Positions 1,079-22,099 of a DNA stretch of 22,324 bases are shown here, one piece after another. The notes below the pieces were generated by a model. It was not told the origin of the DNA, made no database searches, and was given only the letters and a program-made list of their open reading frames with translations. The stretch lies in NCBI GenBank assembly GCA_026770585.1, contig MU646820.1, positions 68,886 through 91,209 on the forward strand, given 5' to 3'. Origin of the DNA: Baffinella frigidus (taxonomy: Eukaryota > Cryptophyceae > Cryptomonadales > Baffinellaceae). The translations under genes and the position numbers were made by a program. The stretch's first letter is position 1; each line of letters starts with the position of its first letter.

Positions 1079-3068
1079 TCAAGACCGCGCGGGGAGAGCG
1101 CGCGGGGAGAGGGGAAGGGAGAGCGGGGCGAGAGGAGCGGCTCGGCATGCGCGGCGGCTTCCTGCACTAGCAACGTCACGGCAGCTTCGGCCTCGGCCAG
1201 CAGGCCGCACCTTGCTTCCAACAGCTGGACCAGCCCGTGCACGCTCGTCTCGCCATCCACCCCCGCAGGCCTCTCGAGCGCCCCGGAGATGCGCGCCCGC
1301 AGCGAAGCAACGTCAGAGCGCACCTGCGTCAATTCGCGCCAGACTTGGATGCGCGAAGACCTGCCCGCCGCGAGCCACGCCCAGGAACGCAGCACCTCTC
1401 GCTTCATGGGGAGCACGCCGCGCCGCCGCTGCGCCCCCCCCAGACTCCCCAGACTCCCCAGCAGCCTTCGCGCCCGCGCCTTGACGCGATGCACGCGCAG
1501 CCAACCAGCCCAGCTGTGCATGAGCGCTTCGTGCCACCGCGCCACACCCGCTTCATACACGATCTCCGAACGGACCGCGCGGCGGCGCAGCTCCCGCCAG
1601 GAGGACAGGGCCCGCACCGCTGCGCTCAGCCGTGTCCGCGTCAAGAGCGTCAACGCGCCCAGCCGCAGCTTCCGCTCCCGCGTCGCGCACCGTGCCCACC
1701 GCGTGAACGCCCTCCCCCTGGCGTGGTGCTTCCGAAAGAGCACCACGGCGCGAATGGCGACGCTGCCCCACCGCGCGCGCCCGCATGCGAGCGCAGAGGT
1801 CACCAGCCCCTTCTGCCGAGACCGCCCCAGAAGCTTCCCACCTGCCACTTGCAGAAAGCGTCTCAATCGGCGCGACGTTCTCGCAGCCGCACACATAATC
1901 CCAAACACCTTCCGCTGATCGCGTTCGGCGTGGCGTCTCTTGGCGGCTCTTGCCAGACGCGTGCGAGTGTTCAGACGCCTCCACGCGGCGAGAAACGCCA
2001 CGAGCAAGCCTCGGCGCCGTCTGGCCGCCCTCCTGGCACAGAAGTAGCGCGAGACACGGCGCCTCGCTCCCGCAGCGTGCCACTCACCCAGCGCGCACAG
2101 CGCCGCGCCCCGCTCCCGCCGTGCCAGCATCCACCCGCACGCCATCCCCTCCACTTTCCGTCGCCGCGCCCTCTGCACCCAGCCGTCGATCGCCCAGTGG
2201 AGGAGCGCGGTGCGGTGCGCGGTCGTGCGGGGGGAGGAGCGACGCCACACGCGGAGAGAGCCCTTGGCGCACAGCAGAGCACCGGACCGGTCGACCGCGG
2301 CGCCCTGGTTTGGGGTGTAGGGTTTTAGGGTGTAGGTTCAGGATTGAGGGTTGAGGGTTGAGGGTTTGGGGTTTTGAGGTTGAGGGTTGAGGGTGCAGGG
2401 TTGAGGGTGCAGGGTTCAGGGTTCAGGGTTCAGGGCATGGGGTTTGGGGTTCAGGATTCAGGATTCAGGGTTCAGGGTTCAGGGTTCAGGGTTCGGGTTT
2501 CGCAAGGTTCAAGGTTCAGGGTTCAGGGTTCAGGGTTCAAGGTTCAGGGTTCAAGGTTCAGGGTTCAAAGTTCAGGGTTCAGGTTTCGGAGTTCAGGGTT
2601 CAGGGTTCAGGGTTCAGGGTTCAGGGTTCAGGTTGCAGGGTTCAGGGTTCAGGTTGCAGGGTTCAGGGTTCAAGGTTTAGGGTATTGGGTTAAGGGTTTA
2701 GGGTTCACGGTTTACGGCTGAAGAGTTTGGGTTTAGGCTTCAGGCTTCAAGGTTTAGGGTTTGGGGTTTAGGGTTTCAGGTTTAGGGTTTAGGGTTTAGG
2801 GGAAAGGGTTTGGTGTTTATGGTGTAGGGTGTAGGTTGCAGGGCCGTATTATGTTGGCTTGGGGTTTAGCGTTTGGGGTTGAGGGTTTAGCGTTCATGGT
2901 TTATGATTTGTGGTGTATGGTGGATGGTTGATGGTTGATGGTTCATACTTGATGGGTTATGGTTTCTGGTTTAGGGATTAGGGATTTGGGATTAGGGTTC
3001 AGGGACCAGGGTTTAGGGTTTCGGGTTCAGGGTTTAGGGTTTAGGGTTGAGGGTTGAGCGTTGAGCGT

Positions 3069-3107
<39 letters not shown>

Positions 3108-4845
3108 GGTTTAAGGTTTGGGCTTAAGAGTTCAGGGTTTAGGGTTTAGGGTTTAGGGTTTAGGGTTAAGGGTTTAGGGTGTATGGTGTAGGGTTTAGGG
3201 TTTAGGTTGTATGGTGTAGGGTGTGGGGCAGTATGATTTTTTCTTGGGGCTGAGCGTTCAGGGTTTAGGGTTGAGCGTGCATGGGTTATGATTTGTGGTT
3301 TATGGTTGACGGTTTATGGTTTAGGATTCACGGTTCATATTTTATGGTTTTATGGTTTATGGTTAATGGTTAATGGTTTATGGTTTATGGTTCACGGTGT
3401 ATGGTTTATGGTGTATGGTTCATGGTTCATGGTTGAGGGATGAGAGTTTGGGGATTCGGGTTGAGGGATCAGTGTTTATGTTTTAGGTTTCAGGGTTGAG
3501 GATTGAGGGTTTTGGGTGTAAGTAGGGTTCAGGGTTCAGGGTTCAGAGACGAGGTTTGAAGTTTATTGTTTAGGGTTCGGGGTGTAGAGTTTAGGGCTGA
3601 GGGTTCAGGGTTCAGGGTGTAGGGTTTAGGTTTTAAGATTTATGGTGTAGGGTTTCAGGGTTTGGGGTTCAGGATTTAGGGTTTAGGGTTTAGGGTTTAG
3701 TGCTTAGGGTTTAGAGTTTAGGGTTTGGGGTTCGGGGATTGGCGTGTAGGGGTACGGGTTTAGGGTGCAGGATTTAAGGTTTAGGATGTGGTGACTAGGG
3801 TTGAGGTTTTGAGGTTGAGGATCTAGGGTCTAGGGCTTAGGGTTGAATGTTTAGTTTGAGGGTTTAGGGTTGAGCGTTGAGGGTTTACCAGCGAAGCGCG
3901 CACCGAGGCGCAGTGTACAGCAGCACCCCACCACCCCAGCAGAACGCTCCGCGAAATCCGCTCGCCGCGGAACGCCACCGCCGCAGCCTCCACCTTCCAT
4001 CCTCGCTGCGCCAGCGCAACCCCCTGTTTCCACCGCGCGATGGTCCGCCCCGCGCGCAATCGCTCCCCGCGTGTAGCCGTGCGCTGCAGTGCAACCGTCA
4101 GGACCCGGGACGAGCGGCTGTTCCCACGCCAGGCCTCCAGCGCTCGCCCCTCCCGCTGCCGGTTCACGCGCGCCAGGAGACGAAAGGCCCCCCTCCATGT
4201 TTGCAGCTGCTTCTGCAGCTTCGTGCACCATCCCAGCCACGCGCGCTGCTTTAGCGTTTTGCAGTTGGCCCGTGACAGGAGCAGATCCGCCAGAGATTGC
4301 GCCAGCCTCGACCTTCGTGCGGCTGCTCTCACCTCCTTTTCCAGCTTGCAGTTCCACTCAAACAGCGCCTTGCTCTCGCTCTCCGCTTGAGACCTGGCAG
4401 CCTTAACCTCCTCCATCTCCGCAATCGCCGCGTGGGCTTCCGCCAACGTCTCCTCCGCACACCGTACTTGCCTTCCGGTTGAGTTGCGCAAGTCAGCGCA
4501 TTTGCGCTCCAGTTCCTGTGCTCGTAGCATCCAGGCCGCCGCCAGCATGCCGCCCTCCTGGCCTGGCTCGTCCAGCACACTCGCGAACTTCACGCTCGAC
4601 TTGCTCGGGGCCCCCGCAGAGGTGGTGTGCGTAGCTTCGGGCGTCGGCGGGACTCCTGCCTCAGGGGAGGAGTTTTCCTTGCCTCGAAGCGAGCCCTTGG
4701 CCCACGCTTTGCCTCCCTCGACCAGGACGAGCGCTTGCGAAGGCCCCGCGACTTCGCTCAGCAGGGCAAACACCTCTGAGCTGGCAGCGTGTGACAAGAG
4801 TGACGAGTCGTTCAGCTGCGCCATCGTGAGCGTGACATCCTCCAT
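1012..4845 (-). CDS. Sfi1-like tryptophan-repeat protein (putative centrin-binding)
   Basis: Two exons, 4845-3889 and 2304-1012, join in phase 0 (donor CTG|GTAAAC, acceptor AACCAG|GGCGCC) to give about 749 aa. The N-terminus (1-110) is Ser/Thr-rich and low in structure. Residues about 110-190 form a charged, probably coiled-coil stretch (ELERKCADLRN, EEVKAARSQAESESKALFEW). From about 190 to 680 there is a long series of helical repeats with spaced tryptophans and Arg-rich tails, such as ALEAWRGNSRSSR, FLAAWRRLNTRTR, AFTRWARCATRERK, ALSSWRELRRRA and HSWAGWLRVHRVKARARR. This is the pattern of Sfi1-type centrin-binding repeats of centrosomes and basal bodies. It is a pattern match, not a proven homology; another Arg/Trp-rich helical scaffold is possible. 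The C-terminus is Ser/Pro-rich and ends inside dispersed repeat F. The gene starts head to head with AP-2 mu, 327 bp away. Confidence 0.75.
2311..3887. repeat. Decayed telomere-like array filling an intron (array 1)
   Basis: About 1.58 kb of heptamer-like units reads TTTAGGG, TTCAGGG, TTGAGGG, TTTGGGG or TTTATGG on the plus strand. It fills essentially the whole intron of the Sfi1-like gene, so the transcript carries the C-rich strand. Variants are grouped: TTCAGGG dominates 2410-2665, TTGAGGG 3050-3105, TTTAGGG 3130-3180, and TTTATGG/TTAATGG 3340-3430. A longer segment starting GGTGTAGGGTGTAGG near 2820 recurs near 3190, so there is a higher-order duplication. Open frames inside it are only repeat translations. 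Confidence 0.93.
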
Positions 4846-5172
4846 CGCTTCGCACGAGAGGACCTCTCTCGAAGGAGGAGGCCTTCCCGCGCCTCCGCCT
4901 CTTACCCTGCCTGGCTGCGAAAGTCGAAAGTTGTTCAGCCCTCGAAATGGACCACATCATCAATTCGGGCCTGTGAGTTTGAGCCTTGTGTGTATCTAGT
5001 TTCGACAGACTACAGTTGCAAATGTCTCACAGTATATCCTCCATTTGGTTTCTGATAGTTTCAGCCAACCCGTCGAGTAAGTTGACTTTTATCTTTTAAG
5101 TTGGCGAGTTGGGGACTGGATTTCTGAGGGCAAGATCTCATCAGATCTGAAGGGGAGCTGGTCCTGGCAGGG
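4846..5172. promoter_or_regulatory. Shared upstream region of the Sfi1-like and AP-2 mu genes
   Basis: The two start codons are divergent and 327 bp apart, so this interval must hold both 5' UTRs and probably a bidirectional promoter. The half nearer AP-2 mu is less GC-rich (TTGACTTTTATCTTTTAAG near 5081-5099). No TATA box or other recognised element can be assigned. Confidence 0.4.
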
Positions 5173-8100
5173 ATGATCAGCGCCGTGTACCTGATCAACC
5201 TGAAGGGAGAGATCCTCATCTACCGCAGCTACCGCGACGATGTGAGTCGCGCGGCAGCCGATGCCTTCCGCATGCAGGTGCTTGCCGCCAAGGAGTTCCG
5301 CTCCCCGGTCCAGGTGTTTGAGAAGGCCAGCTTCTTCCACATCCGCTCCGCCAACGTCTACCTGGTGGCGGCGACTCGCGAAAATGTCAACGCGGCCATG
5401 GCTTTCCAGTTCCTCTTCGCGCTCGTCGACGTCTTCAACGGCTACTTCGGCGGAGCCTTCGAGGAGGAGACAGTGCGGGACAACTTCCCGCTGGTTTACG
5501 AGCTCCTGGACGAGGTCATGGACTTCGGCTATCCCCAGAGCTGCTCCACCGACATGCTCAAGATGTTCATCATGCAGGAGGGGCAGAACATGGATCCCGC
5601 GCGGAAGCTGGTGATAGCGAAGCAGGCGCCTGCACAAGTGACGGGGGCGGTTTCGTGGCGGCGGGAGGGCATCAAGTACAAAAAGAACGAGGTATTCCTC
5701 GACGTGGTCGAGCACGTAAATCTGCTCATGTCCTCCAAGGGGACGGTGCTGCGGAGCGACGTGACGGGGGAGGTGCTCATGAAGACGTACCTCACAGGGA
5801 TGCCAGGTGCCTCTCCCCCTCCCCCTCCCCTGCCCACCCTTGCATCTGCCGCGCTGCCCGTTGAGGAGAAGGTCTGGCGACGAGTCCAGGTGTGGCAGCG
5901 TGGCGCAGTCTCTCACTGACGGCTGTCGTTTGATGCAGAGTGCAAGTTCGGGCTCAACGACAAGCTGATGATGGCGGAGGAGGGGAAGCGGAATTCGGGG
6001 GCGATCGCCATGGAGGACGTCTCCTTCCACCAGTGCGTGAAACTCGGCAAGTTCGACTCTGACAAGGCCGTGACCTTCATCCCCCCTGATGGTAAGCCAC
6101 CGTGGGGGGCTGCTCGCCGTTGTAACCTGCTCTCACCTGCCGATTGACAATCGTACTTGGGGAATGTGCTGGCATGCCAATCTTCCTCGGCTGGGGTGTT
6201 TGGCGGGGCAATCTTGCTCGGCACGGGAATGTTATGACACTGTTGCTCGGCGGGGGATTTTGTGGTGACAGTGTTGGTGGGGTGGCAGGGGAGTTTGTGC
6301 TGATGAAGTATCGGGTGTCGGAGAACATCAACCTGCCCTTCAGCGTTCTCCCGGTTGTCAAGGAGATGGGCCGCACCCGACTCGAGGTCTGCCTCCCTCT
6401 CGAGACACCACCACCACCACATTCGAGGTCTGTCTCCCACACTATCTCGACACCACTGAGAGATTCGAGGCCTGTCTCCCACACTTTCGAGACACCACCA
6501 CGAGATTCGAGGTCTGTCTCCCACACTACACTATCTAGAAACCACCACTCGACTGGAGGTGTGTCTCCCAGTCTTGCCTGCCAGAACACCCGACGCGAGG
6601 TCTCTCTCCCACACCATCATTTGGCAGCAGGGTTGACTACAGCTATCCACTGTCCCCTGGCGATTCTCCAGACACGCCATACGCCTCCAGTTCTTTGTTG
6701 CTCACCCCGCCCCGCACACGCCTCGGGGTGTTGGCTGCCGTCCGTGCTTACCACACACATGCCTCGAGGTCTGCCCTGCTTACCACGGGGTGCTAAGCCA
6801 CGGGGCTTACCATGAGGAGGAGACAGTGCGGGACACCTCGAGGTTTTGCCACACCAAGTAGACACCGCCACACGCTTCGGGGTCTGTGTTGCGTACCCCC
6901 CTGCACACGCATCGACGGCTTGCCTGCCAGCTGTGCTTACCACACAGTGCTCGAGTTCGTGCCGCACCAACAAGATACCACCACACTCCGCGTGGTCTGG
7001 CTTGGTTGCCACGCGTCTCAAGGTCTGTCTGCCACACCGCCCCGCAACCACCTCGAGGGCTGCCATGCTAGCCTTGCTGAAAAAAAACATGCCTCGAGGT
7101 ATTGCCACACCACGTAGACACCATCACCGCACACATCGATCTCTGCCTTGCTTATTCCACACGACTCGAGATCTCCCGTGCACACCCCGCACACGAATCG
7201 AGGTCTTGGCACACCAAGCAGAAACCACCCCTCGCCTCGCCGCGAGGTCTGGCTGCCTGTCTTGCGTGCCACCACATGCCACACCAACACGCATCCGGCG
7301 TGTGCTACCTGCCACGGCCAGCTTGACTTACCAGCCTGGAAGGCGGCAGACTGACGGACTGACTGATAGGGCTGTAACATGGTTGTTGGATCCGATCACT
7401 GCCTGACAGAAAAGCCCTTGGTTGGTTGAGAGTTGGAGGTACCGGTTGCCAAGGTTTGCAGGTCAGGGACAGGTGGTGTAGCGGGCACTGTGTCTGTCAG
7501 AGATGGTTGCCGGCACGGTGGTTCCGCGGTTGGCGCAGTCGTCTCACCTTGCTTGTTGTGCGTGTTTGATGCCTGTTGTGCGTGTTTGCCTGTTGTGCGT
7601 GTTTGACAATTTATCAGATAATTTATTAAACCTCGCCCCCCCCTGCAGATCAACGTGAAGGTGAAGGCGCAGTACAGCAGCGTCACGGGCCTCAACGTCA
7701 TCGTGCGCATCCCCCTCCCGCCCAACACCGCCAAGGTCACCGCGACCACCGCGGCTGGCAAAGCCAAGTACGAGCCGGAGACCTCGGAGCTGGTACCCAC
7801 CCACCCACCACTCTGGGGATACAGTCCCGTGTAGCATGGCCGGAGTGACTGTATCCCCAGAACCACCCATACCGCCCCTGTCTCGGGGTACTTCTAGTTG
7901 GGGGAATGCTTCGAAGGCCACTGTGTGGTGTGGGCTCCGCGCTCGCGATGATGGGCGTGAAAGGAGGAGGTGGCGTTGCTGGTGCGGGCGCGGCAGACCG
8001 AGCAGATGGTATGCACCCCGTGTGGAGGAGACGCTCAGGGATGCACTGGCAACGCTTGCCGTGCCAGAACATGTGCTTGCCAAGTAAGAGGTAGAGCAGC

Positions 8101-9285
8101 TCCCTTTTCAGGTGGCACTCGAAAAGGGCGAAACCTCTGAAACATTCAAGAGCTTTTAGTCGAATCCGTCCATTTAAAGGATTTCCTGGTAAAAATTCAT
8201 CGAGTTGACCAAACGCTCTTAGAAGTTTCGGAGTTTTCGACCTTCCCGGAGTGCCAACTAGTAAGGGACCTGCTCTCACGCGTGTGGTGGTGTTGGCAGG
8301 TATGGCGGATGCGAAAATTCCCGGGCGACACGGAATATGCGCTGAGCGCTGAGGTGGAGATGTCTGCGCGGATTGAGGACAAGCGGGCTTGGTCCAGACC
8401 TCCCATCAGCATGGAGTACCAGGTGCTTGCCGTCCGGGCCAACCACTGCCGGGGCTGGGCTGCCTCCCTCCCTGCCTCCCCGCCTCCCTGCCTCCCTGCC
8501 TCCCTGTCTCCCTGTCTCCCTGTCTCCCTGCCCCCCTCTATCCCTCCCTCCCTCCCTCCCTCCCTCCCTCCCTCCCTCCCTCCCTCCCTCCCTCTCTCCC
8601 TCCCTCCCTTCCGGACGGCCTGGCACCAACTGTCCCGTTGAACCCTGTCACCACCAGCCACTTCCCAGAGCCAGCTGCGAGCGCTGGCACCAGCCGGTTC
8701 TGCCCTGACAAGCACGCACGCGATTCTGACACGCTTTGGCAGCGGTGGCTGGTGCTCACTGAGTGCCGCTTTTTCTTTTCTGGATTCACGCACCTTGCAG
8801 TCTCTCACCTCGCAATCACCCTGCAGTCTCTCACCGTGCATTCGCGCACCGTGCAGCCACTCACCGCGCTGTGACGCACGTTGCAGCGTAGTACTGACCG
8901 TGCGAGGCACAGCATGCAGCAGCCACTGCCCGAGCGAGGCGCGCGCGCGCTGCGCAGGTGCTGCTACTTCGGCACCTGCCTCATAAGAAACCGCATCCTC
9001 CTAGGACCCTACAGGAGAGGCCTATGCCTAGGGCCCTAAGGTGGTCCTAGGGGGGATGCGCTTTCTGATGGGCGAGGTACCCCTGTACTTGCAGGCACGC
9101 ACGAAGAAGGCACTGACCCTGTGCAGTGACTGACCGTCCGCCGCGCGCGCGCTGAGCAGGTGCCAATGCTGGCCGCGTCGGGGCTCCACGTCCGTTTCCT
9201 CAAGATTTACGAGAAGTCCAACTACAACACCATTAAGTGGGTCCGCTACATCTCTAAGAATGGGCAGTACTTGAACCGTATTTAG
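5173..9285 (+). CDS. AP2M: AP-2 adaptor complex subunit mu (clathrin endocytosis)
   Basis: Medium subunit of the plasma-membrane clathrin adaptor AP-2, which binds YxxPhi sorting signals and PIP2. Exons: 5173-5806, 5939-6091, 6289-6386, 7649-7792, 8300-8422, 9160-9285; total 1278 nt, about 425 aa, close to the usual 430-440. All junctions are GT-AG; the first two introns are phase 1, the rest phase 0. An N-terminal longin domain (about 1-140, with IYRSYRDDV, NVNAAM, YELLDEVMDFGYPQ) is followed by a mu-homology domain (about 155-425, with WRREGIKYKKNEVFLDVVE, FIPPDGEF, RPPISMEY, KWVRYISKNG). The threonine phosphorylated by AAK1 is kept in QVTG, and the Asp of FLDV and Trp/Arg of KWVRY of the signal pocket are present. 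DDVSRAAADAFR and NVNAAM favour AP-2 over AP-1 mu. The ATG at 5173 gives the expected MISAVYLI start. Confidence 0.96.
6381..7320 (+). repeat. Tandem repeat in AP-2 mu intron 3 built on the 5' splice-site sequence
   Basis: Most of the 1262-bp third intron (6387-7648) consists of units starting (C/T)TCGAGGTCTG. The first five or six units (6381-6610) are about 42 bp long and read roughly TTCGAGGTCTGTCTCCCACA followed by a CGACACCACC segment. Later units (to about 7320) are longer and decayed, with CTCGAGGTCTGCC and CACACCA elements recurring. The first unit overlaps the exon end: CTCGAG is the exon 3 end and GTCTGCC the donor. No protein function is implied by the frame that runs through it. 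Confidence 0.75.
7552..7607 (+). repeat. Three-copy tandem repeat near the end of AP-2 mu intron 3
   Basis: TGTTGTGCGTGTTTG occurs three times in a row (period 17-20 bases, with short spacers) about 40 bases before the acceptor at 7648. Confidence 0.75.
7813..7860. repeat. Perfect 14-bp inverted repeat in AP-2 mu intron 4
   Basis: CTGGGGATACAGTC (7813-7826) and GACTGTATCCCCAG (7847-7860) are exact reverse complements around a 20-base loop. It sits 20 bases after the donor of intron 4 and could be a minimal foldback element or an RNA hairpin. Confidence 0.72.
8111..8258. mobile_element. Foldback element (family D) in AP-2 mu intron 4
   Basis: The left arm from GTGGCACTCGAAAAGGGCGA (8112 on) to AAGAGC (8154) pairs with a right arm ending GGAGTGCCAACTA (to 8258); the inner parts CTCTGAAACATTCAAGAGC and GCTCTTAGAAGTTTCGGAG are complementary apart from a few bases. 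Arms of about 43 bases flank an AT-richer centre of about 60. No second copy is seen in this window. Confidence 0.65.
8461..8618 (+). repeat. CCTCCCTG/CCTCCCTC microsatellite in AP-2 mu intron 5
   Basis: A pyrimidine tract made of CCTCCCTGCCTCCCTGTCTC-type units followed by an almost pure CCCT run. It begins 38 bases after the donor of intron 5. Open frames in it on both strands are artefacts of the repeat. Confidence 0.93.
8790..8880 (+). repeat. Degenerate short tandem repeat in AP-2 mu intron 5
   Basis: Units of about 16-17 bases of the type TGCAGTCTCTCACC, with drifting ends (TCGCAATCACC, GTGCATTCGCGCACC, GTGCAGCCACTCACC), occur about six times in a row. Confidence 0.5.
8962..9090. mobile_element. 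Family-A foldback element in AP-2 mu intron 5
   Basis: The left half GGCACCTGCCTCATAAGAAA then CCGCATCC pairs with the right half GGATGCGCTTTCTGATGGGC then GAGGTACC. The interior has the family core CCTAGGACCCTA and GGTGGTCCTAGG. It lies between a false acceptor-like CAG|GTGCTG at 8956-8957 and the true acceptor at 9159, in a gene transcribed through it. Confidence 0.66.
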
Positions 9286-9667: not shown

Positions 9668-9782
9668 TACAGGGGCAACTCGCCCATAAAAAAGCGCGCC
9701 CCCCTAGGACCCTACAGAAGGGCTATGCCTATGGTGGTCCTGGGGGGGGGGGGCGGATTATTATGAGCAAGGAACCCCTGTA
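9668..9782. mobile_element. Family-A foldback element, intergenic
   Basis: Ends TACAGGGGCAACTCGCCCAT and GAGCAAGGAACCCCTGTA are near reverse complements, with the interior CCCCCTAGGACCCTACAGAA and a GGTGGTCCTGG followed by a G-run. 115 bp long, downstream of AP-2 mu. Confidence 0.72.
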
Positions 9783-9851: not shown

Positions 9852-9980
9852 TTCCGGGGTACCTCGCTGATAAGAAACCGCCTCCCCCTAGGACCCTACC
9901 ACAGCCCTGTGCCTAGCTAGGGCCCTGTGGTGATCCGATGGGGGGGGGGGGGGCTTTCTTATGAGAGAGGTACCCCTGTA
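9852..9980. mobile_element. Family-A foldback element, intergenic
   Basis: Left end CCGGGGTACCTCGCTGATAA then GAAACCGCC; right end CTTTCTTATGAGAGAGGTAC then CCCTGTA. The core has CCTAGGACCCTACCACAG and TAGGGCCCTGTGGTGATCC with a 14-base G-run. It lies about 70 bp after the previous copy. Confidence 0.72.
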
Positions 9981-11178: not shown

Positions 11179-13238
11179 GGGAGGGGGCGCGCACAGAGGA
11201 GGAAGAAGGTAGGTGTCCAGATGATGCGTCGCGCGAGGACGGGTACGAAGCCCTGGCGAGAGCAGTCAACTTAGAGCCGTCCACGTGCCGTCATAAGTTG
11301 CCAGGGTGACCAGGAATAGCCAACTAGGAGTCTGAAAAGGGCACGAGCAAAGTACAGCGGGAAAGTAGGGAGAGTAGGGAGAGTCTTCTGCGCTCACCTG
11401 AAAGAGCGAGCGCGCGCCCTCCTCTTTGACCATGCACACGACAGTGTGCCACGCGCCGCGGTACTCGCGCTTCTCAGCGGCTGCGTGCAGCGCCTGCCCC
11501 GGGGGGGGGTGAAGCGAGGTTCATCAAGTTGGCAAACAAGACCGCTTCACGCTAGGAGAAGAGGTGTGACGACACCAAAGTGCTCAACCGTCACGGAGGG
11601 TCTAGAGAGGGTGGGTATGGGAACCTGCCCCATCAGCCGGGTCTTGACGGTGTCTGCGGGGGTGCACACGGCGCTGGCTGCCTGGTTGAGTGGTGAAAAT
11701 TGGTCAACTTTGGAGCAGAAAGGGGCCTTGCTTCACAAAGTTGGTTAGGCAAAATAGAATCAGCTGGTAGGTGCGGGGGGCACCCGGGGTTGGAGTTTGC
11801 GGTTTATGGGCTGGGGGTTGGGGGTTGGGGGTTAGGGGTTAAGGGTTGGGGCATACCATCGCCGCAATGCAGCTAGCGGCAAGGTGCACAGGCGGTCCGT
11901 TAGGGAAGCCGGCATCAACCAGCATTGTCTTCACTTCGTCGTAGCTCCCCTGACAGTCACTCAGGGTTTACACCGAGCCAGATTACTACTGCCTCAATGT
12001 CGTGGGGAGTTCCCCTCCCAGAATCGGAGTCGGAGTTCCCATCCTAACCATTCTACCCACAAGGCCCAGCGTATGTGCATCAGCGTCGACGCTAGTGGAG
12101 TCATTACTGTGTGGCTCAGAACGTGGGCAGCCACACGACTCAGGCGCAAGACTCTCAAGAGGAACGTGGCAGGAGGACGGACATGCCCGACATGCTGACC
12201 CACACCACTCAGCATGCGCGTGTGCACGCAATCGACTTGACGGCACGCGTCCTCGCCTCTTCTCTTTTCCAAGCCATCACCCCTGAGCTCGCTCGTCCAA
12301 GCTCATAAAACGGAGGTGGCAAAGAGGAGGACGCAGAAGGAAGGCAAGCAAGGACCTGTTCTGCCGCGCAGACCAGGAACGTCCGGGCGACGTTGGCTCT
12401 CAGCCCTGCCCAGAAGCCCGGCAGGCCTTCCTTGGCCATGACCCTCCTCGCGACCGCGATGGCCGACTCCCGCGGTCCCGTGGAATCTTGGAGGATCACC
12501 TTGACCCGCTCGATTGGGTTGGCAATCGCGATTCCGATTGACCCACTGATCCCGCCTGCGGCGAATCTGTGCAGCATCTCAGGTTCGCCGCCCCCTGCGA
12601 GAAGCGTCTTGATGTCCTCAAACAGCGCCTGCCGGGGTGCCGCACCGCGATTCAGCGACGCTGTGGCTCTTTAGAAGCCAGCTTTTGGAACACGCATCAG
12701 GCATGACACCGAATCGCCGGGGGTGGGGACGGGGAGCACCATCGGCGGCGTCATATACACCTGCAAGAGGTAGAGGGCGGTTCAGAGGCGGGACAGAGCT
12801 CGCTCGGAGCAGGCAAGTTGTGGATGGGGTGCAAGGGCCTGAAAGCTTGCTAGTTGTCTGAAGTCATGTCACGGGCAAAGATGGGTTGCAAGCACAGGGG
12901 CACACCGCCTGCCGCATCAAGGCTGGCGGCAGTCCCCGGAACAGCGAAGTCGCCCCCTCCTTGCGAACGATGGATTGCATGCTCCGAATCAAGTGTCGTG
13001 GCGTGAATCCTGAGTGCAGGTCTTTTCTCGCAAGCTGGGCGCGCGTTTTCGCCACGTCGATCGGAAGGGTGAGGGTTTCGGCCACTGCGGCGGACAACAG
13101 GCTGGCCCAGAGACGCTCGGAGCGGAGTGCCCCGTGGAGGTAGGAGGTGCCGTAACCAGACCGCGAAGTGCCCAGAAATGCCCTCTCCTCGCCGACCACA
13201 TGTCCTCTCTCTTGCAACCCCGAACCCCCCTGCACCAT
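11133..13238 (-). CDS. Mitochondrial carrier family (SLC25) protein, UCP/dicarboxylate-like
   Basis: Solute transporter of the mitochondrial inner membrane. Exons on the minus strand: 13238-12906, 12760-12740 (a 21-nt microexon), 12628-12356, 11949-11857, 11681-11625, 11493-11398, 11252-11133; all six introns are GT-AG and phase 0, giving about 330 aa. All three carrier repeats are complete: PIDVAKTRAQ with EGATSLFRG, PIERVKVILQ with EGLPGFWAG, and PADTVKTRLM with EGARSLFQG, the last split across an intron. The joined RQA-VYMTPPM-ALFEDIK matches the carrier pattern after repeat 1, which is the evidence for the microexon. The three signatures look most like the UCP/dicarboxylate branch; the substrate cannot be told. 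The N-terminus before repeat 1 is about 40 residues longer than typical, so the start is uncertain. The C-terminus ends within repeat F. It is head to head with the GT37 gene. Confidence 0.9.
11786..11852. repeat. Short telomere-like tract in a carrier intron
   Basis: Plus strand reads GGGCTGGGGGTTGGGGGTTG and on through GGGGTTAGGGGTTAAGGGTT. It begins three bases inside the 5' end of carrier intron 4 (donor ATG|GTATGCCCCAACCC on the minus strand), so the C-rich strand is in the transcript, as in arrays 1 and 3. Confidence 0.8.
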
Positions 13239-13431: not shown

Positions 13432-16400
13432 ATGGCGAGTCTGCTGTGGCAGGTGCTCAGAGTGCGGGTGCTGCCGCTGGTCCTGCTCCTGGCTGTCTCG
13501 TGTGCCGGGAGGACAGACAGCCGGAGCGAAGCACAGGGCGGACAGACAGCAGCAGGCGAGAGGAGCCGCAGCGAGGCGAGGGAGCAGCTCCTTCGGACCC
13601 TTGAAGAGAACATGGAGCGGGCGGCGCAGTCTCCCGAAGCGGCAGCTACCTTCCGCTCATTCGAACGACGGCAAGCGGCCGCCCTCGAGAACATGGCGAG
13701 CGCGCGCTTTGTCATGGCGCGAATGAATCCTGGAGCTGGCCTTGGGAACCGAATGGTGGCACTCGTGTCTGCCTTCGTTCTCAGCATCGCCACAGACCGC
13801 GCGCTCCTCATTGAGTGGGAGTCGTATGCAGAGCCGCGCACCCATCGCAGCCTGGAGGTGTGCCACCATTCCCCGCAGCACATTTAATCTTCCTCAGACG
13901 CCCTGGACTCGCCCAGCCTCTGGGCCCGCGTACCGCTGTCTCAAGCGGGTGAGATCTGCTGGCAGGTGTCCACGATGTCCCCTATCGAAACATTCGTGGA
14001 GCTTCCGTTCGCCGGCGACACCAGCGCGATCCTCACGTCTGATAAGGACGTCAAGGTCCCCAGCCAGCCCCCCCAACCTAATGCCACAAGCCAACGCCAG
14101 CGGACCCCTTAGCCTACGGTAGGACCCGCCCCCTCCTCCTACGACGTTGAAAACAAAAAGGTCTTTACAGGTCGTAGGAGGGGTGCTTCTACCGTAGGCA
14201 ACCTGTAGGCTCTAAGCACCTCGCTGGCGTCAGCTTTTCGGATGAAACCACGACCCACCAGCCTACCCTCGGAGCATCCCTCGGAGAGAGGGCCTCCCCG
14301 ACTTCTTGAACCTGAGCGTGGTGTCGCGCGGGGGTGGGCAGGCGTTCGGGTGGGACTACCGGGCGTGGCAGATGCTTCATGACGAGCGAGGCGAGGACCT
14401 TGCCGCGCTGCTGACGGAGGACCTGAGAGTCTCGCTGAAGCCGAGAGTCGTGGTCCTCTCCGCGATCTCGCACCTCACGCAGCTCCTTGTTGCCAACCCC
14501 CACCTCGCCGCGCCGATCAACGTCCTTCCCCCACAACTAATTTTGAGTATTAGGGATTAGGGTTTGGGGTTCAGGGTTTAGGGTGCAGGGCTTGGGGTTG
14601 AGGATTTGGGGTTTAGGGTTCAGGGTTCAGGGTGTGGGTGTAGGTTTTGGGGTGTGGGGTGTGGTGTTTTCGGTTAAGGGTTGAAGGTTTAGGGTTTAGG
14701 GTCTAGGTATTACGGATTACGGATTAGTATTCGGGTTTTCGGTCTACGGTCTACGGTTCAGGGTTAGGATTGAGGGTTTAGGGTTTGGGTTTTAGGGGTT
14801 GGGGTTTGGGGTTTAGGGTTTAGAGTTCACTGTTTATTGTTGGGGTTCAGGGTACAGGGTTCAGGGTGCAGGGCTCTGGGTTCAGGGTTCAGGGTTCTGG
14901 GTGGGGGTGCAGGTTTTGGGGTGTGGGGTTTAGGGTGTGGGGTCTAGGGTTTAGGGTTTAGGGATTAGAGTTTTCGGTATACGGTTTACGGTTCAGGGTT
15001 ATGATGTAGTGTTTGGTATCTAAAGTTTTGGGGTTAGGGTTTGGATTTTAGGGTTTAGGGTTGAGGGGCTATTTTTTATTCTTTATTGTTTATTGTTTAT
15101 GGTCAATGGTTTATGGTTTATGGTGTATGGTTTATGGAGTATGGTTTTGGTTTATGGGAGTAGGTTCGATGGTTGAGGGTTGAGGGTTGATGGTTGAGGG
15201 GGGGGGGGCTTGGGGGGGGGGTTGAGGGTTCAGGGTTCAGGGTTGAGATTTAATGGTTGAGGGTTGAGGGTTAAGGGTTGAGGGTTGGGGGTTGGTTTTG
15301 AGAGTTGTGGTTTGAGGGTTGATTTTTGAGGGTTGAGGGATTTGGGTTTAGGGTGAAGAATGCTGGGTGTATGGTGTAGGGTTGAAATTGTGTGTGTATG
15401 CATCAGGGTTTAGGGTGCAGGGATTGGTGTTTAGAGATGAGGGTGTATATTGTATAGATAGTTTGATTCAGGGTTGATGGTTTAGGGTTTAGGGGTTGAC
15501 GTTTTAGGGATCAGGGGTTTGGTTTTCGAATTTAAGTTTAGGGATTAGGGTTCAGAGATGAGAGTTCAGGGTCCAAGGATTAGGGATAAGGGTCCACGGT
15601 TGAGGATTTGGAGTTGAGACGTTTAGGGTTTATGGTTGAGGACTTAGGATGTGGGTGTAGGGTATCGGGTGTGGGGTGTTGGGTTTGTTAAGAGTTTAGT
15701 GTTGAGTGGTTTAGGGTTTAGGGTTTAGTGGTTTAGGGTCTATGTTTGGGGTTTAGGCATAGGGATTATGGATTGCGGTTTAGGGTTTAGGGATCAGGTT
15801 GTGGGGTTGTGAGTGGAGGGTTGAGGACTGGGTTGGGGGTGGAGGGTTAAGGGTTAAGGGTTAAGGGTTAAGGGTTAAGGGTTAAGGGTCAAGGGTTAAG
15901 GGTTGCGGTTTGAGTGGTGAGTGGTGAGGGTTGAGGGTTGAGGGTTCAGGTCATGAGTGATTTGTTTAGGCTGAAGTTCCAGGGTTCACGGATATGGGAT
16001 ACAGGCGGTATGGTTAATGTTTTAGGGTGCAGGGTGCAGGGGTTTGTTCCCAGGGTTCACGCACCCCAGACAACCGCCGCGATCCCATTTGGCCTTCAGG
16101 TCCTTTAGGTCCTTTAGGTTCTTTTAACTCCCACCATAGGCGGACACCGAAACGTATCCTGCAGAGAGGCCATGCTTCCTTTCGGAGCGCGGGACTGACG
16201 CTGTGGCTGTCCGCAGGGCATGCTGGGCGCGAACCCGTTCCCGGCAGCCGCGCGCTACCTCCTCGCGCCCGCGCCGCCCGTGCGCGCGGCCGTGGCCAAG
16301 TTCTACCTCGAGCGCATGGCGGGGCGGGGCGTCGTCGGGGTGCACCTCCGGACCATCGAATACATGACCCTTGGAGAGCAGGCACCCGCCCTGCTCATCC

Positions 16401-18113
16401 TCTTGCTGCTCATTCTCTTGCTGCTCATTCTCTTGCTCTCTCGCAGTTCGCGTTCCCTTGCTCTCTCGCAGTCGCTGCCGTCACCCCGTACCGTCGCTCC
16501 TGCCAGCACTAGCCAGCTTTCACCCGCCGTTCTGACACCTGCGCGTACCTCTCGGACCCTGCAAAGGGCGGGTCGCGCTAAGAAGCTGCTATTACCGGTA
16601 CAGGGTTCACTCGAAATTGAGGGCACGCACCGCCCCTAGGGTGGTCCTATGCTCCTGGGCATGTCCCTAGTGTGGGACCCTACGGCGGTGTGTGTCCTTC
16701 ATCTCGAGTAACCCCTTTACTGAAGACGGTTGAGGCGCCTGTAGTGAAAGACTCCTAGTTGGCTAATCCTGGCAACCCTGGCCACTTACGGCGACAATTG
16801 GAGCGCTCGAAGTGGACGACTCTCCACACAGTGGGCTTCGATGGTTTCGTTGACCCTTGATTCCGGGGTGTTGCGTGACCAATTTGCATAGAAAAAATCT
16901 TAAAATTTAATTGTCTTAAGGTAAGTTGACTTTTGATGAAAGGTTCGTAGTCCACCGAGTGGGAGTAACAAGAAGGGTGTGGGCGAGCAGGAGACAGCGC
17001 TGGGGTGCGCGCGGTTCCTGGCGGCAGGAGGCGCCGCAAGTGTCTTTGTCGCCTCGGACACCCCCGCCGGCATGATCCTCGCTCGCAAGGTTCCTCGCCT
17101 TTCATGCCTCTGCCAGAGTCGGGTCTGTTAGGTCCGTTCGGTTCTGCGAGCTCCCAACATAGGCGGACACTGGAACTTGTTCTGCAGAAAAGCCATGCTC
17201 CCTTTCGGGTTGACTGGTCGCTGTCACGCCACAAGGTGCCGGGTTTGTACCACCAACCCGGCAAATGAACGTCCGGTCTCCTCATTATGAAGAGATTGAC
17301 TCAGGCGGAGCTAGCATGCCCCGCGCGAGTGTTTTCGGTCCCTCTCCTCGGAGACAGCACCGTGCTCCCCTGAGACGGGGTGCTCTTCAGGGATTGATAG
17401 AGTGCGCTCGCAGGACCCCTAATCCCTCTCCTCTCAGACATCACCATGCTCCCCTGCGTCCCAGTGCACGCCAGGAATATCCCTCAAGTGGCCAGTAGGC
17501 TCATACGCCCTACGGTGGGGTCCTAGGACCTGCCTAGGACCTCGTGTGGGTCAAATTTGACCAGCTCGGCACGTGAGGGATATCGACTGCCCTCGCAGGA
17601 CCCCTCCCGTGTGCGTCACGGGAGGGGCCCTGATAGCCCACGGGTTTCGGGCTGCTAGAGCCCTGGTCTCGTCCCACCTCTCCCCCTGGCGTGAAGCGGT
17701 GATGTGTGTCAACGTATTGAACCTCGCGTGCCCCCCCGATGTGTGATGCGTGCGTGGCTCGGCAGGTTCTAGGAGACGGGTTCCTGCGGTACGAGACTGT
17801 TGGCCCCGGGCGCGAGGGCGAGCGAGCTCTCTTGGATGGGTGGGCTAACGTGCTGCTCTTGAGCAAAGCAGACAGCATCGTAGGCACGAGCCGCTCGTCC
17901 TTCGCGCTCCTTGCTGCCGGTCTCAACGGGGGAGGGGGGGCGGGGGAGGGGGGGGGCAGTCGGCCTCTCTATGACGTGTACGGGGACGTGTGCGTGAAGG
18001 TGTCGTGTTATCTACCTGTGGTGCAGAGGGACCATCCAGCAGCGAGACGCGTGCCTGCCTTCAACGCGTCGTGTCTGGAGGGCAGCCCGCGCGTCACCAT
18101 TGTCTCCGCGTAG
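13432..18113 (+). CDS. GT37-like (plant xyloglucan-type) fucosyltransferase
   Basis: Probable Golgi type II glycosyltransferase using GDP-fucose. Modelled exons: 13432-13857, 13966-14055, 14291-14521, 16217-16381, 16991-17089, 17766-18113, about 452 aa, all phase 0. The N-terminus has one hydrophobic signal-anchor (VRVLPLVLLLAVSCAG). Family motifs appear in order: NPGAGLGNRMVALVSAFVLS followed by DRALLIEWE (exon 1), TFVELPFAG (exon 2), GVVGVHLRT (exon 4, cf. the family's IGIQIR), ASVFVASDT (exon 5), and WANVLLLSKADSIVGTSRSS with FALLAAGLNG (exon 6). Exon 6 has a C-terminal Cys pair in DVCVKVSC. The exon 4 donor is GC (CAG|GCACCC). Boundaries of exons 2 and 3 were chosen by frame and are least sure: TTCCTCAG at 13898 is a better-looking acceptor for exon 2 but does not keep frame. 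A related NodZ/FUT-type enzyme is the alternative. The 1.7 kb third intron carries telomere-like array 2. Confidence 0.8.
14112..14199. mobile_element. Foldback element (family C) in GT37 intron 2
   Basis: GCCTACGGTAG (14112-14122) and CTACCGTAGGC (14189-14199) are perfect complements at the ends; CCCCTCCTCCTACGAC and GTCGTAGGAGGGG pair further in around a loop containing GAAAACAAAAAGG. 88 bp long, with no second copy in the window. Confidence 0.77.
14541..16060. repeat. Decayed telomere-like array in GT37 intron 3 (array 2)
   Basis: About 1.5 kb of TTTAGGG-like heptamers on the plus strand, the sense strand of the gene, so the transcript carries the G-rich strand, opposite to arrays 1 and 3. 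Variant blocks include TTTATGG (15090-15140), TTGAGGG (15170-15200) and TTAAGGG (15845-15905). A segment around 14640-14790 (TTTTGGGGTGTGG, then TTTTCGGTCTACGG) recurs near 14910-15060 in the same order. The final 155 bp of the intron contain repeat F, copy 3, and the acceptor at 16216. Confidence 0.93.
16094..16190 (+). repeat. Dispersed repeat F, copy 3
   Basis: TTCAGGTCCTTTAGGTCCTT, then TTAACTCCCACCATAGGCGG, ACACCGAAACG and CCTGCAGAGAGGCCATGC followed by CCTTTCGG. It lies just upstream of the 3' splice site of GT37 intron 3; similarity to copy 4 extends into the CGCTGT stretch. Confidence 0.7.
16391..16435 (+). repeat. Three 15-bp tandem units
   Basis: CTGCTCATCCTCTTG followed by two copies of CTGCTCATTCTCTTG, inside GT37 intron 4, followed by two CTCTCTCGCAG segments (from 16436 and 16462). 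If translated the units read LLILL, so the region could be mistaken for a membrane segment. Confidence 0.85.
16598..16721. mobile_element. Family-A-like foldback element in GT37 intron 4
   Basis: TACAGGGTTCACTCGAAATT with GAGGGCACGCACCGCC pairs with GGCGGTGTGTGTCCTTCATC with TCGAGTAACCCC. The core has CCCTAGGGTGGTCCTA and GTGTGGGACCCTA. The arm sequence matches the remnant at 9360. Confidence 0.6.
17118..17222 (+). repeat. Dispersed repeat F, copy 4
   Basis: GTCGGGTCTGTTAGGTCCGT, then GAGCTCCCAACATAGGCGG, ACACTGGAACTTG and TTCTGCAGAAAAGCCATGC followed by CCCTTTCGGG. It starts 28 bases inside GT37 intron 5. It agrees best with copy 1 in the core (CTCCCAACATAGGCG). Confidence 0.7.
17477..17583. 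mobile_element. Family-B foldback element in GT37 intron 5
   Basis: Ends ATATCCCTCAAGTGGCC and GGCACGTGAGGGATAT are inverted repeats; the core contains ACGCCCTACGGTGGGGTCCT, CCTAGGACC twice and the palindrome GGTCAAATTTGACC. 107 bp, the cleanest single copy of this family. Confidence 0.77.
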
Positions 18114-18324: not shown

Positions 18325-18431
18325 GAGGCAGGGCTAGACGTCCCGTGCGCGTGGCCGCTCGTGTCAAGGGGATCATTGGTTCTCGCTGCCCGGCGTGCGT
18401 AGGCACCCCCGGACAAGATGTGTCCTCGCAG

Positions 18432-18776: not shown

Positions 18777-18805
18777 GCTTTCTTGAGCCCAACTTCCAAG
18801 GAGCT

Positions 18806-18909
18806 ATCATTAAGTGGCGAGCGGGTCAAAATTCACCCCCGAGAGGTCCCAGGTAGGTCCTAGGGCCCTACGGTAGGGCGTATGATCCTACTCGCCACTC
18901 AAGGGATAT
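18806..18909. mobile_element. Family-B foldback element downstream of the small ORF
   Basis: Left end TTAAGTGGCGAGCGGGTCAA pairs with right end CTCGCCACTCAAGGGATAT. The core contains GGTCCCAGGTAGGTCCTAGG and GCCCTACGGTAGGGCGTAT, nearly the same as in the other family-B copies. About 104 bp. Confidence 0.7.
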
Positions 18910-19702
18910 GCGCTGAGCTGTCTTGACGAGACATCATAGGAGCCGAACTTTGGGAGGCCGCGAGCAGTACGTCGGGAGCATCCGCAGTCGGAGAGAAGCG
19001 GGGTGAAAATTTCCAATGTAAGGCTGTTGAGTGCAATTTAATGCGGAAACGGTTTGAATTGAAAACTTTCTCCGAGGGGGATTTGTGGGTTTTCGAGGCA
19101 AACTTTTCCAAGCAAAATATTTCTTCTTCTTTCCACAACGGATGCTTGAAACAACTTTGAAAGTTTTTGCTTGGAAGTAGTCTCAGATTTTTGCTCAGCC
19201 ATCGGGAAGGGTCCCTCCGGAGGCGCGCAAAAGGACGTTTTGGGGGGGGTCCAAATGCCCAACAACCCTGAAAATCGTTTTTTGGCCAATGGAGACCGGA
19301 TTCCGGTCTCCTTGGCTCAATTTGTACCAGAAAGATAGAACGACAGAAAGTTGTAGATCGAAAAATACAGAAAATCGATTTCCGAAATGTTTGCCCCGCG
19401 GTTTGAGGGGTAATACCCGACTCTTCAGCGGAGGGAACGGGGGGGAGGGCTGCGCCAAGGCCTCTATCTCTGCCTCGCACGTCCGTGTCTTGGAGCTCCG
19501 ACCGTCTGATCGGCAGCTCTCCCTGGAAAGTTCCTCAGCGGGGCTTCCTCCGCGCCCTGGCGAGCTTGACAGTGAGTCTGTGGTCAGGAGAGCGGATGGC
19601 GGCGTGGTGAATCAGGGCTCTCCAGTCGCCGCCAGCCTGGTCGCGGGCTGCTCTAGGACGGCGCGTTCTTCCAGAGCGGCATTTGTTTCTGGAGAAGGTG
19701 CA
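18910..19702. other. AT-richer intergenic region with a perfect palindrome
   Basis: From about 18990 to 19420 the base composition drops clearly below the rest of the window. GGAGACCGGA-T-TCCGGTCTCC (19291-19311) is a perfect palindrome with a one-base centre. Around it, GGCAAACTTTTCC (19099 on) roughly mirrors GGAAATCGATTTCCGAAATG with TTTGCC (19395 on complement), so a large decayed foldback is possible. The minus strand is open for 193 codons (19480-18899), but the product has no family I know and follows the composition shift. The 5' UTR and promoter of the next gene must lie here. Confidence 0.45.
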
Positions 19703-22099
19703 ATGGGGTGCACGCGAGACGAAGGGGCGGGGCAGATTTGGGAGGAATGTGCTCGCCGCCGGTCACCAGGAAGAGGGGGAGGGCTGGGGGCTGGGGCGCG
19801 GGCTGTCGCTGTGGTGGCGCTGGCGCTGACCCTGGCTACGTCGGGCGCGGCGCTGGAACCGCAGATGTTGGGTGCGACGTTGACGTGGGCTGTCCATCCC
19901 AACTTTCGGCCTCAAGAGGCCAGCAGCAGTATCAACGATGTGACAAGGGATGTGACTTTCACGCTGCGGACAGCGTGGAAACTGGAGTGGCTTGGGGGGG
20001 CCGGTGATTGTAAAATCCAGGAGGGCGATGAGGTGCTGGACCCGTTTGGAACGTGGTTCTCACGCTGCGGCGCGCAGTCAGCAGCGTTCGGGAACTTGTC
20101 CATCTTCGCGTGTGACTCTGCGGTCAGCCCTTGCGAGTTCAACAACCAACAACCTTCTTCTACGGTGCGCAACAATCTGCGAGTTCTCCAGACGAACATG
20201 TACGGGAAGCGGCCGGGGGTGTGGGGCGACTCTGGGTTCGTTGCGATCATGAGCGGCGAGTTCAAGTACACGTACACGGTGGCAGACAGCAAGCAGTATC
20301 TCTACGCGTACCTTCACGTCGCCGACCCGCAGTTAACGTACAAGGAAGCGCTCAGCACGTTCCACACGGGAAACCAAGTGTACTTCGGTACCACGGTGCT
20401 GCAGAACTTCCAGGTCCCGGCCAATCAGGCGCGCTTCGTGCCCACGAGCGTGCGCCTCTGCGTCAAGGCCAACTGCCGCCCCGTCCTCGCCGGCTCGCAC
20501 GTGCAGAACTACTACTCGCCCATGCCGGCGTTCCCCCTCGTGGTGTTCCCCCCGCCGGACGCGACCAAGCAGCGCGGCACGCGCTTCAAGGTCAACGACT
20601 ACGACGGCCAACCCATCCTCCTCAAGGGCCTGCTCTCCGCGGACCTCTCCACGGACGCTGGGGACCTCTCTGACGTGGGCACCTTCTCCGTCTCGCAGAC
20701 GCTCGACCTGGAGGTGTCGAACTCGACTGGGGCGCTGCTGACGCCCGCGGCCGTCTCCGGGGGCCCGACCAAGCTGGGGTTCAAGATGCTCGAGGTGCAG
20801 GATCAAATCTTTGACCAGCTCGAGAAGCAGGTCATGCTCAACCCGAAACACGAAACACGAAACCCGAAACCCAAAAACCGGAACCCGAAACCGAAACCCG
20901 AAACCCGAAACCCGAAACCGAAACCCGAAACCCGAAACCCGAAACCCGAAACCAGAAACCAGAAACCCGAGACCCGAAACCACACACCCCACACCCCAAA
21001 ACCCAAACCTCACACCCCACACACCACACACCACACACCACACCCCAACCCCCAATCCTCACACACCACACACCACACACCACACACCTCACACCTCACA
21101 CCCCACACCACACCACACACCACACAAAAACCCAAAACCCAAAACCCACACCTCACACCACACCCCACACACCACACACCCCACGCACCACACCCCAAAC
21201 CTCACACCCCCAACCCCCAAACCCCACACCCCAACCCCAAACCCACAACCCCAAACCACTGACCCCACACACCACACACCACACACCACACACCACACAC
21301 CACACACACCACACACAAACCACCATACACCACACACCACATCCCAACCACCAACCCCCAAACCTCACACGCCAAACCCCAAACTCCAAACCCCTAACCC
21401 CGAACCTCAAACCCCAAACCCCAACCCTAAAACCCCAAACCCCACACCCCAAACCCCAAACCCCAAACCTGAAAGCAGGTGACGCTAGCGGGCGGGACAG
21501 TGACGAGCCCCTCCGAGGCCTCGCGCTCGGTGTACGACGACCTCACGGGGTACACCACAGACCTGCGCGTGGAGCGCCCGCAGCCGTCGAGCACGGCAGG
21601 CGACGCCAGCGTGCAGATGGTGTGGACGGTCATCCCGCAGGACCAGGCGTGCGCCGCAGGCTCGGGGCTGGGGTGGGCGGCGGGGCTCCCCACGGAGGTG
21701 GAGTGCTTCTACGACCAGCCCAACGACTGCAAGACGGTGCTGCGCCTGTCGGCCACGGCCGCAACGGACCAGCTGGGGGTGCTCGCGGCGTCCGGCTTCG
21801 CCAAAATCCCCGGGTGCCCCATCACAAGCGAGGACGGGAGCCCGCGCACCGACTCGGGCGATGCGTGGTGCGCGGCGAACTGGGCCAGAGCGCCGTGCGG
21901 GTGCTGCAAGAACTTCGGGGCTACCTTCGGGTGCGAGTTCAAGCTCCCCGGGCTGGACATCAACAAGGTCGGGATGTCGGAGACCATGTGCTTCGTGGCG
22001 AAGTCGTCCAAGGACGCGGTGTTCGACGCGCGGGGCGAGCGCACGTGCCACTCGGAGCCCCACTGCGTGCGCTTCAACATCCGGGGGTACGCGCCCTAA
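19703..22099 (+). CDS. Unrecognised secreted or membrane-anchored protein (3' end uncertain)
   Basis: Exons 19703-20830 and 21479-22099 (phase 0, donor CAG|GTCATG, acceptor GCAG|GTGACG), about 582 aa. The ATG at 19703 (start MGCTRDEGAG) precedes a hydrophobic segment at about 34-51 (AVAVVALALTLATSGAAL) that looks like a signal peptide or anchor; the frame is open upstream to 19289 but that part looks non-coding. The mature part is rich in beta-prone stretches (GATLTWAVHPNFR, DVTFTLRTAWKLEW, FGTWFSRCG) and has many cysteines, including a Cys-rich tail (CAANWARAPCGCCKNF, then FGCEF). This suggests a disulphide-bonded extracellular protein, but I recognise no family. The stop TAA (22097-22099) is the first telomere-like CCCTAAA unit; a GTACGC at 22087 could instead be a donor, so the gene may continue beyond the window. 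Confidence 0.66.
20838..21470. repeat. Telomere-derived array in an intron (array 3)
   Basis: Reads ACCCGAAACCCGAAACC on the plus strand from 20850 to 20970, then a long CACACCACACACC-type stretch (21010-21340), then AACCCCAAACCCC to 21470. The C-rich strand is in the transcript. It fills the 648-bp intron from 20831 to 21478 apart from about 8 bases at each end. One reading frame stays open for 430 bases across it, which would produce a false His/Pro/Thr-rich tail. Confidence 0.92.

Follow-up and report, generated by a model that had tools for sequence, protein, structure and literature searches.

How does telomere-type DNA come to lie between the exons of protein-coding genes, and does it create introns there or lengthen introns that already exist? 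The question is raised by a stretch of the genome of the cryptophyte Baffinella frigidus: 22,324 bases with 59% G+C, in one gap-free contig (G000:C509:68886-91209), referred to here as the window. An earlier note on this DNA, made from its letters alone, had described arrays of TTTAGGG-derived heptamers as introns of four genes (the Sfi1-like, carrier, fucosyltransferase-like, and secreted-protein genes) and had offered two explanations, new introns arising from telomeric DNA or existing introns attracting it, with repair of exon breaks by telomerase as the route. We analyzed these genes, telomere-type words across the whole assembly, and a sample of further arrays. The reading that we favor, with a probability of roughly 0.55, is that telomere-type DNA entered staggered chromosome breaks and that insertions providing or restoring splice sites persisted as new or lengthened introns.

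Telomere-type arrays in four predicted introns

In the window, Tandem Repeats Finder reports rows of period 7 at 2307-3887, 11786-11851, 14550-15950, 20840-20981, 20979-21469, and 22112-22324. All four array-bearing introns have GT-AG ends and lie in phase 0, and their exons join in frame, which confirms the earlier description of four arrays between in-frame exons. We infer that telomere-type arrays are excised as introns in four window genes, the splicing itself being predicted from sequence. The gap between donor and first repeat is 0 bases in the Sfi1-like gene, 5 in the carrier gene, 6-9 in the secreted-protein gene (depending on the caller), and 27-28 in the fucosyltransferase-like gene; the earlier figure of 0-8 bases in three of the four is correct to within a base. 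Only the Sfi1-like and secreted-protein introns are filled nearly from edge to edge, and in both the join is supported by the reading frame, the coding model, and the splice letters. The carrier and fucosyltransferase-like introns consist partly of array.

The Sfi1-like intron (2305..3888, minus strand) holds an edge-to-edge array that is C-rich in sense (row 2307-3887, unit GGTTTAG, 225 copies). Read on the minus strand, its ends are CTG|GTAAACCC ... CCAAACCAG|GGC, and the phase-0 join gives the in-frame junction peptide RASL|GAAVDR. Upstream of the intron, the coding sequence occupies 3889..4872 (minus strand), where the coding model covers 3928-4872 and the open frame reaches 3889; downstream, coding model and frame support 1174..2304 (minus strand). 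The product matches no Pfam family even at an E value of 10, and its name is that of the earlier note.

In the secreted-protein gene, which is single-copy, the coding model supports a first exon (19703..20830, plus strand) and a second exon (21479..22086, plus strand), joined in frame at LEKQ|VTLAGG. The intron between them (20831..21478, plus strand) is an array nearly from edge to edge, C-rich in sense, in two rows (20840-20981, unit AACCCGA; 20979-21469, unit ACCCCAC). Its boundaries fall within a direct repeat of 14 base pairs (bp): the left copy, AAGCAG|GTCATGCT (20825..20838, plus strand), contains the donor, and the right copy, AAGCAG|GTGACGCT (21473..21486, plus strand), contains the acceptor. 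The copies are identical at 11/14 positions and score 9, a level that chance would produce in 0.9 of 58 arrays. The second exon ends either at a TAA (22097-22099) in the first unit of a further array or by splicing at a donor-like GTACGC at 22087. No homologue of the protein was found, and a search of the genome returned only its own locus and so no paralogue.

The carrier intron (11682..11856, minus strand) contains a degenerate array of 9.4 copies of GGGGTTG, C-rich in sense, which lies in 11786-11851 and makes up 66 of the 175 intron bases; about 104 bases separate it from the acceptor. The preceding exon (11857..11949, minus strand) ends in ...HLAASCIAAM and the following exon (11625..11681, minus strand) reads AASAVCTPADTVKTRLMGQ. 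The join, SCIAAM|AASAVCTPADTVKTRL, is covered by a Mito_carr match (PF00153; E value of 5e-13 on the joined exons).

The fucosyltransferase-like intron (14522..16216, plus strand) carries an array that is G-rich in sense, from about 14549 to 15950, or to 16084 under a looser definition (row 14550-15950, unit TTAGGGT, 202 copies), and ends 132-266 bases before the acceptor, according to how degenerate a tail is allowed. The exon before it (14270..14521, plus strand, ending in ...LAAPIN) is supported by frame and by the coding model over 14270-14524, with an uncertain start. The exon after it (16217..16378, plus strand; GMLGANPFP...GVVGVHLRT...) is supported by the coding model, frame, and a weak NodZ match, with an uncertain end, and the two join in frame at AAPIN|GMLG. 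The upstream part reaches 22.1 bits against XG_FTase, below the curated cutoff of 23.4; the downstream part reaches 17.1 bits against NodZ, below the cutoff of 28.3; and matches of the product in PDB are poor (E values of 0.24-0.85). Membership of family GT37 is a suggestion.

A fifth array, absent from the earlier list, follows the last secreted-protein exon (22093..22324, plus strand), shows the C strand, and runs into an assembly gap; besides the period-7 row from 22112 it gives a period-21 row from 22106. Another array intron may begin here. A right-hand chromosome end was also considered for this array and ruled out, because CCCTAAA running rightward is the wrong strand for such an end and a gap of N follows.

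Could the arrays be telomeric reads misjoined into genes during assembly? The assembly (382,457,362 bases in 1,364 scaffolds) does contain long runs of N, including those on either side of the window, and some arrays border such runs. We nevertheless regard an assembly artifact as extremely improbable: the sequence around the four window arrays, and around many of those sampled, has no gaps, the exons on either side join in frame (in two genes across Pfam domains), and the splice words and repeats described below are specific to each locus.

Abundance across the genome

The exact word (TTTAGGG)3 occurs 53,120 times in the genome (25,832 and 27,288 on the two strands), while the reversed word, used as a control, occurs 27 times (13 and 14). 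Arrays of this kind, which the earlier note had taken to be rare away from chromosome ends, are therefore not so here. Internal, nonterminal arrays are present within scaffolds, as in interstitial telomeric sequences. Two scaffold starts fetched for a view of the terminal repeat of this species (L049 and L050) were N throughout. A search for the RNA-binding domain of TERT gave no match in this genome, and none in 14 control genomes either.

These counts bear on another explanation, in which heptamer runs grew by local slippage inside introns and no telomeric DNA was ever inserted. Variant units do occur in runs within arrays, and other tandem arrays begin near donors; the 42-bp repeat of AP-2 mu intron 3 shows that nontelomeric arrays, too, can begin there. 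Against slippage stand the disparity between the forward and reversed words, the recurrence of one unit at independent loci, and the flanking direct repeats reported below. We consider this explanation very improbable.

Placement, orientation, and edges of arrays

For a wider sample, 20 regions of 10 kilobases were fetched, of which 15 surround hits on scaffold C1, 3 adjoin the window, and 2 are the starts of scaffolds. Five (L031-L033, L049, and L050) were left out as wholly or almost wholly N or as overlapping the window, and the analyzed set comprised 17 gap-free pieces totaling 136,246 bases, taken from the window and loci L034-L048. These loci were chosen for exact plus-strand 21-mers on C1, which biases the sample toward purer arrays. 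Array calls used the 60-bp coverage by telomere words, one mismatch at most being allowed, a procedure that missed the degenerate carrier array. Across 10 Markov-shuffled versions of the window, the best 60-bp coverage was 0.42-0.67, and the long window arrays keep a coverage above 0.4 across hundreds of bases. Coding segments are predictions of a codon model that was seeded with the window exons and then self-trained; some short exons escaped it, and some of its calls are false.

Coding neighbors were found on both sides of 45 of the 70 sampled arrays, and their strands agreed in 29 cases and disagreed in 16. This fraction (29/45, or 0.64) is close to that for random placement in noncoding DNA (0.61, standard deviation 0.06), so arrays also lie between genes. 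The claim that they occur only as introns fails in this 136-kilobase sample; by this crude strand-agreement measure, arrays are as common between genes as random placement would make them, the outcome that the earlier note had named as telling against its own proposal.

The array edges nonetheless depart from that null, in which arrays were placed at random within existing noncoding DNA. A coding segment ends or begins within 20 bp of 19 of the 133 array edges, against 3.8 expected (standard deviation 1.8), and none of 1,000 permutations reached that number. Excluding the window leaves 15 of 124 edges against 2.9 expected, with a permutation maximum of 10. The excess over a noncoding null indicates that some arrays lie at or in exons. 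Two other accounts of the edges were rejected. Masking of arrays in the coding model does not produce the excess, which was again 19/133 with the arrays unmasked (a version run without permutations); nor are the arrays coding sequence, since just 180 of 19,598 array bases were called coding when unmasked.

Arrays that abut exons are strongly oriented. In the sense of the neighboring coding segment, 17 abutting edges are C-rich and 2 G-rich; the edges of one array are not independent in this count, which becomes 15 versus 1 per array. The sole G-rich array (L035 7322) may belong to a gene on the opposite strand. Arrays between same-strand neighbors are biased in the same direction (23 C-rich versus 6 G-rich; one-sided binomial, 0.001). 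Pure CCCTAAA contains neither GT nor AG, while every unit of TTTAGGG contains both, and the C-rich orientation may be tolerated in transcripts for that reason.

Splice words are enriched genome-wide beside pure C-strand arrays. CAGG lies within 1-8 bases downstream of them 1,270 times, compared with 208 for CGGA and 282 for CACG (4.5-6.1-fold over the two control words), and GGTA lies within 1-6 bases upstream 342 times, compared with 65 for GGAT and 93 for GATA (3.7-5.3-fold). These excesses describe the edges of pure arrays, and full introns were checked at a few loci. By eye, the commonest edge forms in the first hundred places listed are GGTAAACCC and TAAACCAGG, near the letters of the Sfi1-like intron, with G|GTAAACCC on the donor side and TAAACCAG|G on the acceptor side.

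Direct repeats flanking the arrays

Direct repeats between the two flanks were scored for 58 arrays, obtained from the 70 by merging neighbors and dropping those near piece ends. A score of at least 8 was found for 13 of the 58, where mismatched flanks predict 2.0; for a score of at least 13 the corresponding numbers are 4 and 0.08. BLAST of flank pairs gave at least 24 bits for 5 of the 58 arrays and for 0 of 348 control pairs. The repeats are about 10-39 bp long, variable in length, and some contain a splice site.

At two loci, the secreted-protein gene and L036 844-1082, the left copy of the repeat spans the donor and the right copy the acceptor, and the frame is restored, with modest repeat scores. 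The copies at L036 are ATCAAG|GTGCACCTC and GACCAG|GCGCACCTC; the open frame upstream extends for about 206 codons, yet the coding model favored the opposite strand. L035 7322-7614 has an arrangement of this kind in layout only (CCG|GTGGAAACC and CAG|GTGGAAAGCC), its coding being unclear. At L043 4533-4731, a gene for a CCA-adding enzyme is split by an edge-to-edge array (ATG|GTATACC ... AAACCAG|GCG), and the joined exons match PolyA_pol across the junction with an E value of 8.4e-33. At L046 7435-7503, the array is surrounded by three occurrences of a stretch coding for GTLAVGDVEV, of which the middle one is degraded.

A different arrangement is seen at three further loci, where an exon start with its AG stands on both sides of the array: L042 4722-4831, with a 32-bp repeat containing one mismatch, L044 118-212, and L048 5102-5173. 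These look like old introns that were lengthened, not gained, with the acceptor shifted. The copies at L044 and L048 are diverged starts of last exons, and the upstream copy reads to a stop within the array; alternative C termini are conceivable at these two loci.

Such loci are what would be expected if all of the introns were old. Telomere-type DNA would then have entered existing introns, the DNA between genes, or the starts of exons (in this last case duplicating the acceptor). It would have lengthened introns and made no new ones, and selection would have removed other insertions. The chance proportion of arrays between genes and the nonrepeat remainder of the carrier and fucosyltransferase-like introns fit this explanation as well. 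It accounts poorly for introns filled with array from edge to edge whose two splice sites adjoin the repeat (Sfi1-like, L043, and secreted protein), for the GGTA excess on the donor side, and for the in-frame AG|GT-type repeats of the secreted-protein gene and L036 844-1082. We consider it unlikely, though far from negligible, as an account of all the introns.

The flanking repeats also raise the possibility of introners or other transposons, in which the repeats would be carried by a mobile element whose body is telomere-like and whose ends can be spliced. Many copies, target duplications, and recurring acceptor forms (TAAACCAG|G and GAAGCAG|G) would suit such an element. Its duplications, however, would have to vary in length, and by eye the arrays share only the repeat, although no systematic search for terminal inverted repeats was made. 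An element of this kind seems quite improbable to us.

Proposed origin of the arrays

We return to the entry of telomere-type DNA at staggered breaks, which would have taken place at very many sites of the nuclear genome. A staggered break in transcribed DNA would be filled with telomere-type repeat, either added by telomerase or captured, and then joined, and filling in of the overhangs would leave the target directly duplicated over a variable length. An insertion in or at an exon would be harmful unless spliced out, so that splice-competent insertions would survive. In some cases the array TAAACCC may supply the T of the donor beside a target G, and the acceptor may arise where the end of the array meets a G of the target. 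Elsewhere, both splice sites could come from a target duplicated as CAG|G or AG|GT. The C-rich orientation in the sense strand would be tolerated since it introduces no decoy GT or AG. Slippage and mutation would afterwards lengthen and blur the array.

The best candidates for new introns are those of the secreted-protein gene and L036 844-1082; the Sfi1-like gene and L043 4533-4731 are perhaps others. At each of these loci, gain is favored over lengthening only provisionally, and telomerase is a presumptive source of the filler.

Several observations weigh against this origin. Neither the Sfi1-like intron nor the L043 array intron has a convincing flanking direct repeat, the carrier array adjoins the donor only, and the fucosyltransferase-like array, G-rich in sense, lies close to neither splice site. 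Three of the clearest repeats (L042, L044, and L048) indicate lengthening. The AG|GT-type repeats of the secreted-protein gene, L036, and L035 score 8.5-9 each, a level reached by about 1-2 of 58 arrays by chance, and one or two of the three could therefore be chance. Arrays lie between genes at the chance proportion, and most sampled array edges have no coding segment nearby. Splice words at the sampled edges show a weak excess: GT[AG] at 5' edges in 31 of 68 C-sense and 24 of 65 G-sense cases (0.34 at random) and [CT]AG in 40 of 65 versus 36 of 68 (0.38 at random).

The earlier proposal, telomeric DNA as a source of introns or as an insertion at them, thus survives in part. The edge excess, the direct repeats, the genome-wide splice words, and the in-frame repeats that contain donor and acceptor speak for it; the presence of arrays outside introns, the lengthening at L042, L044, and L048, and the weak splice excess at sampled edges speak against it. 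A broader claim, that repeat insertion at breaks is a major and possibly continuing source of spliceosomal introns in this lineage, is tentative: we hold it possible and short of probable, its odds being lowered by the modest score of each AG|GT repeat and by the lengthening seen at three of the clearest repeats. If it is true, hundreds to more than 1,000 introns would be patched chromosome breaks, with the CCCTAAA strand as a splice-neutral filler.

Other repeats and splice sites in the window

AP-2 mu intron 3 (6387-7648) starts with the 42-bp tandem repeat (6409-6570), whose unit resembles the end of its own exon plus the donor (TCGAGGTCTGTCTCCC). An array of the 8-bp unit CCTCCCTC (8463-8609) begins soon after another AP-2 mu donor. 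The AP-2 mu protein of the window shares 92% and 91% identity with two proteins derived from transcripts and 87% with an EukProt entry with the prefix "Tamp," which we take to be Teleaulax amphioxeia (Cryptophyceae by taxonomy). By this one protein, the host is probably a cryptophyte; a search for the large subunit of RuBisCO gave no match.

Imperfect inverted repeats around CCTAGGACC/GGTCCTAGG, recognized by eye, have the look of a small mobile-element family; they lie at about 780-900, 8990-9070, 9690-9780, and 9860-9975, and further at about 10190-10310, 16640-16700, 17500-17580, and 18830-18905. A short dispersed repeat around CATAGGCGGACAC occurs at about 1020-1075 (minus strand), 16127-16190 (plus strand), 17119-17208 (plus strand), and perhaps 11140. 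BLAST finds the copies near 16,100 and 17,120 alike and more copies in L044, L047, L041, and L037.

Several of the inferred donors at 12355 (minus strand), 14056, 14522, and 6387 open with GTC (GTCCTT, GTCCCC, and GTCTGC), unlike GTAAGT. To judge from these letters, splice-site choice in this genome may be loose.

Comparison with known systems

Biologists have long asked how new introns arise, and natural systems that show gain as it happens are few. In this genome the filler can be recognized, the scars measured, and the orientation rule tested, and a single genome could therefore separate the creation of introns from their lengthening. Telomere words within genes need not mean misassembly, a caution for annotation. 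At the level of titles and abstracts, we recognized no report of telomeric arrays as introns or in intron formation. The intron-like sequences described in yeast telomeric Y' elements (PMC6726248) differ in that splicing there takes place inside subtelomeric elements.

Passages on mammalian interstitial telomeric sequences describe their insertion at double-strand breaks (PMC7215372). Direct duplications were found at 3/66 horse loci and ascribed to staggered breaks; no human copy lay in an exon, and the share in introns (31%) fitted random insertion; and the effect of such sequences on splicing was posed there as a question to test (PMC7215372). The Baffinella arrays resemble those described there in consisting of internal telomere-type repeats, in inviting an explanation by break repair, and in having duplications at some loci. 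They differ in adjoining exons and splice sites beyond chance and in their sense-strand bias. Telomere-type repair DNA would thereby gain a lasting role in gene structure, a matter not settled by the work on human and horse.

Introner families, as characterized in part of a survey, have 3-9-bp duplications and/or terminal inverted repeats, some having neither (PMC9860276); "telomer" and "tandem repeat" do not occur in its main text. Like the introners described there, the arrays are one kind of sequence that would make introns at many loci, with target duplications. Unlike them, they have duplications of about 10-39 bp, variable and outside the range of 3-9 bp, and a body that is a simple telomere-type repeat.

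In Daphnia, intron gain reportedly involves filler DNA placed in a break between direct repeats that contain splice sites. One discussion of that genus considers break repair with short direct repeats as a route of intron gain (PMC4202315). The likeness to such a mechanism is that filler is flanked by direct repeats with splice sites, and the difference lies in the filler, which in Baffinella is one recognizable telomere-type repeat.

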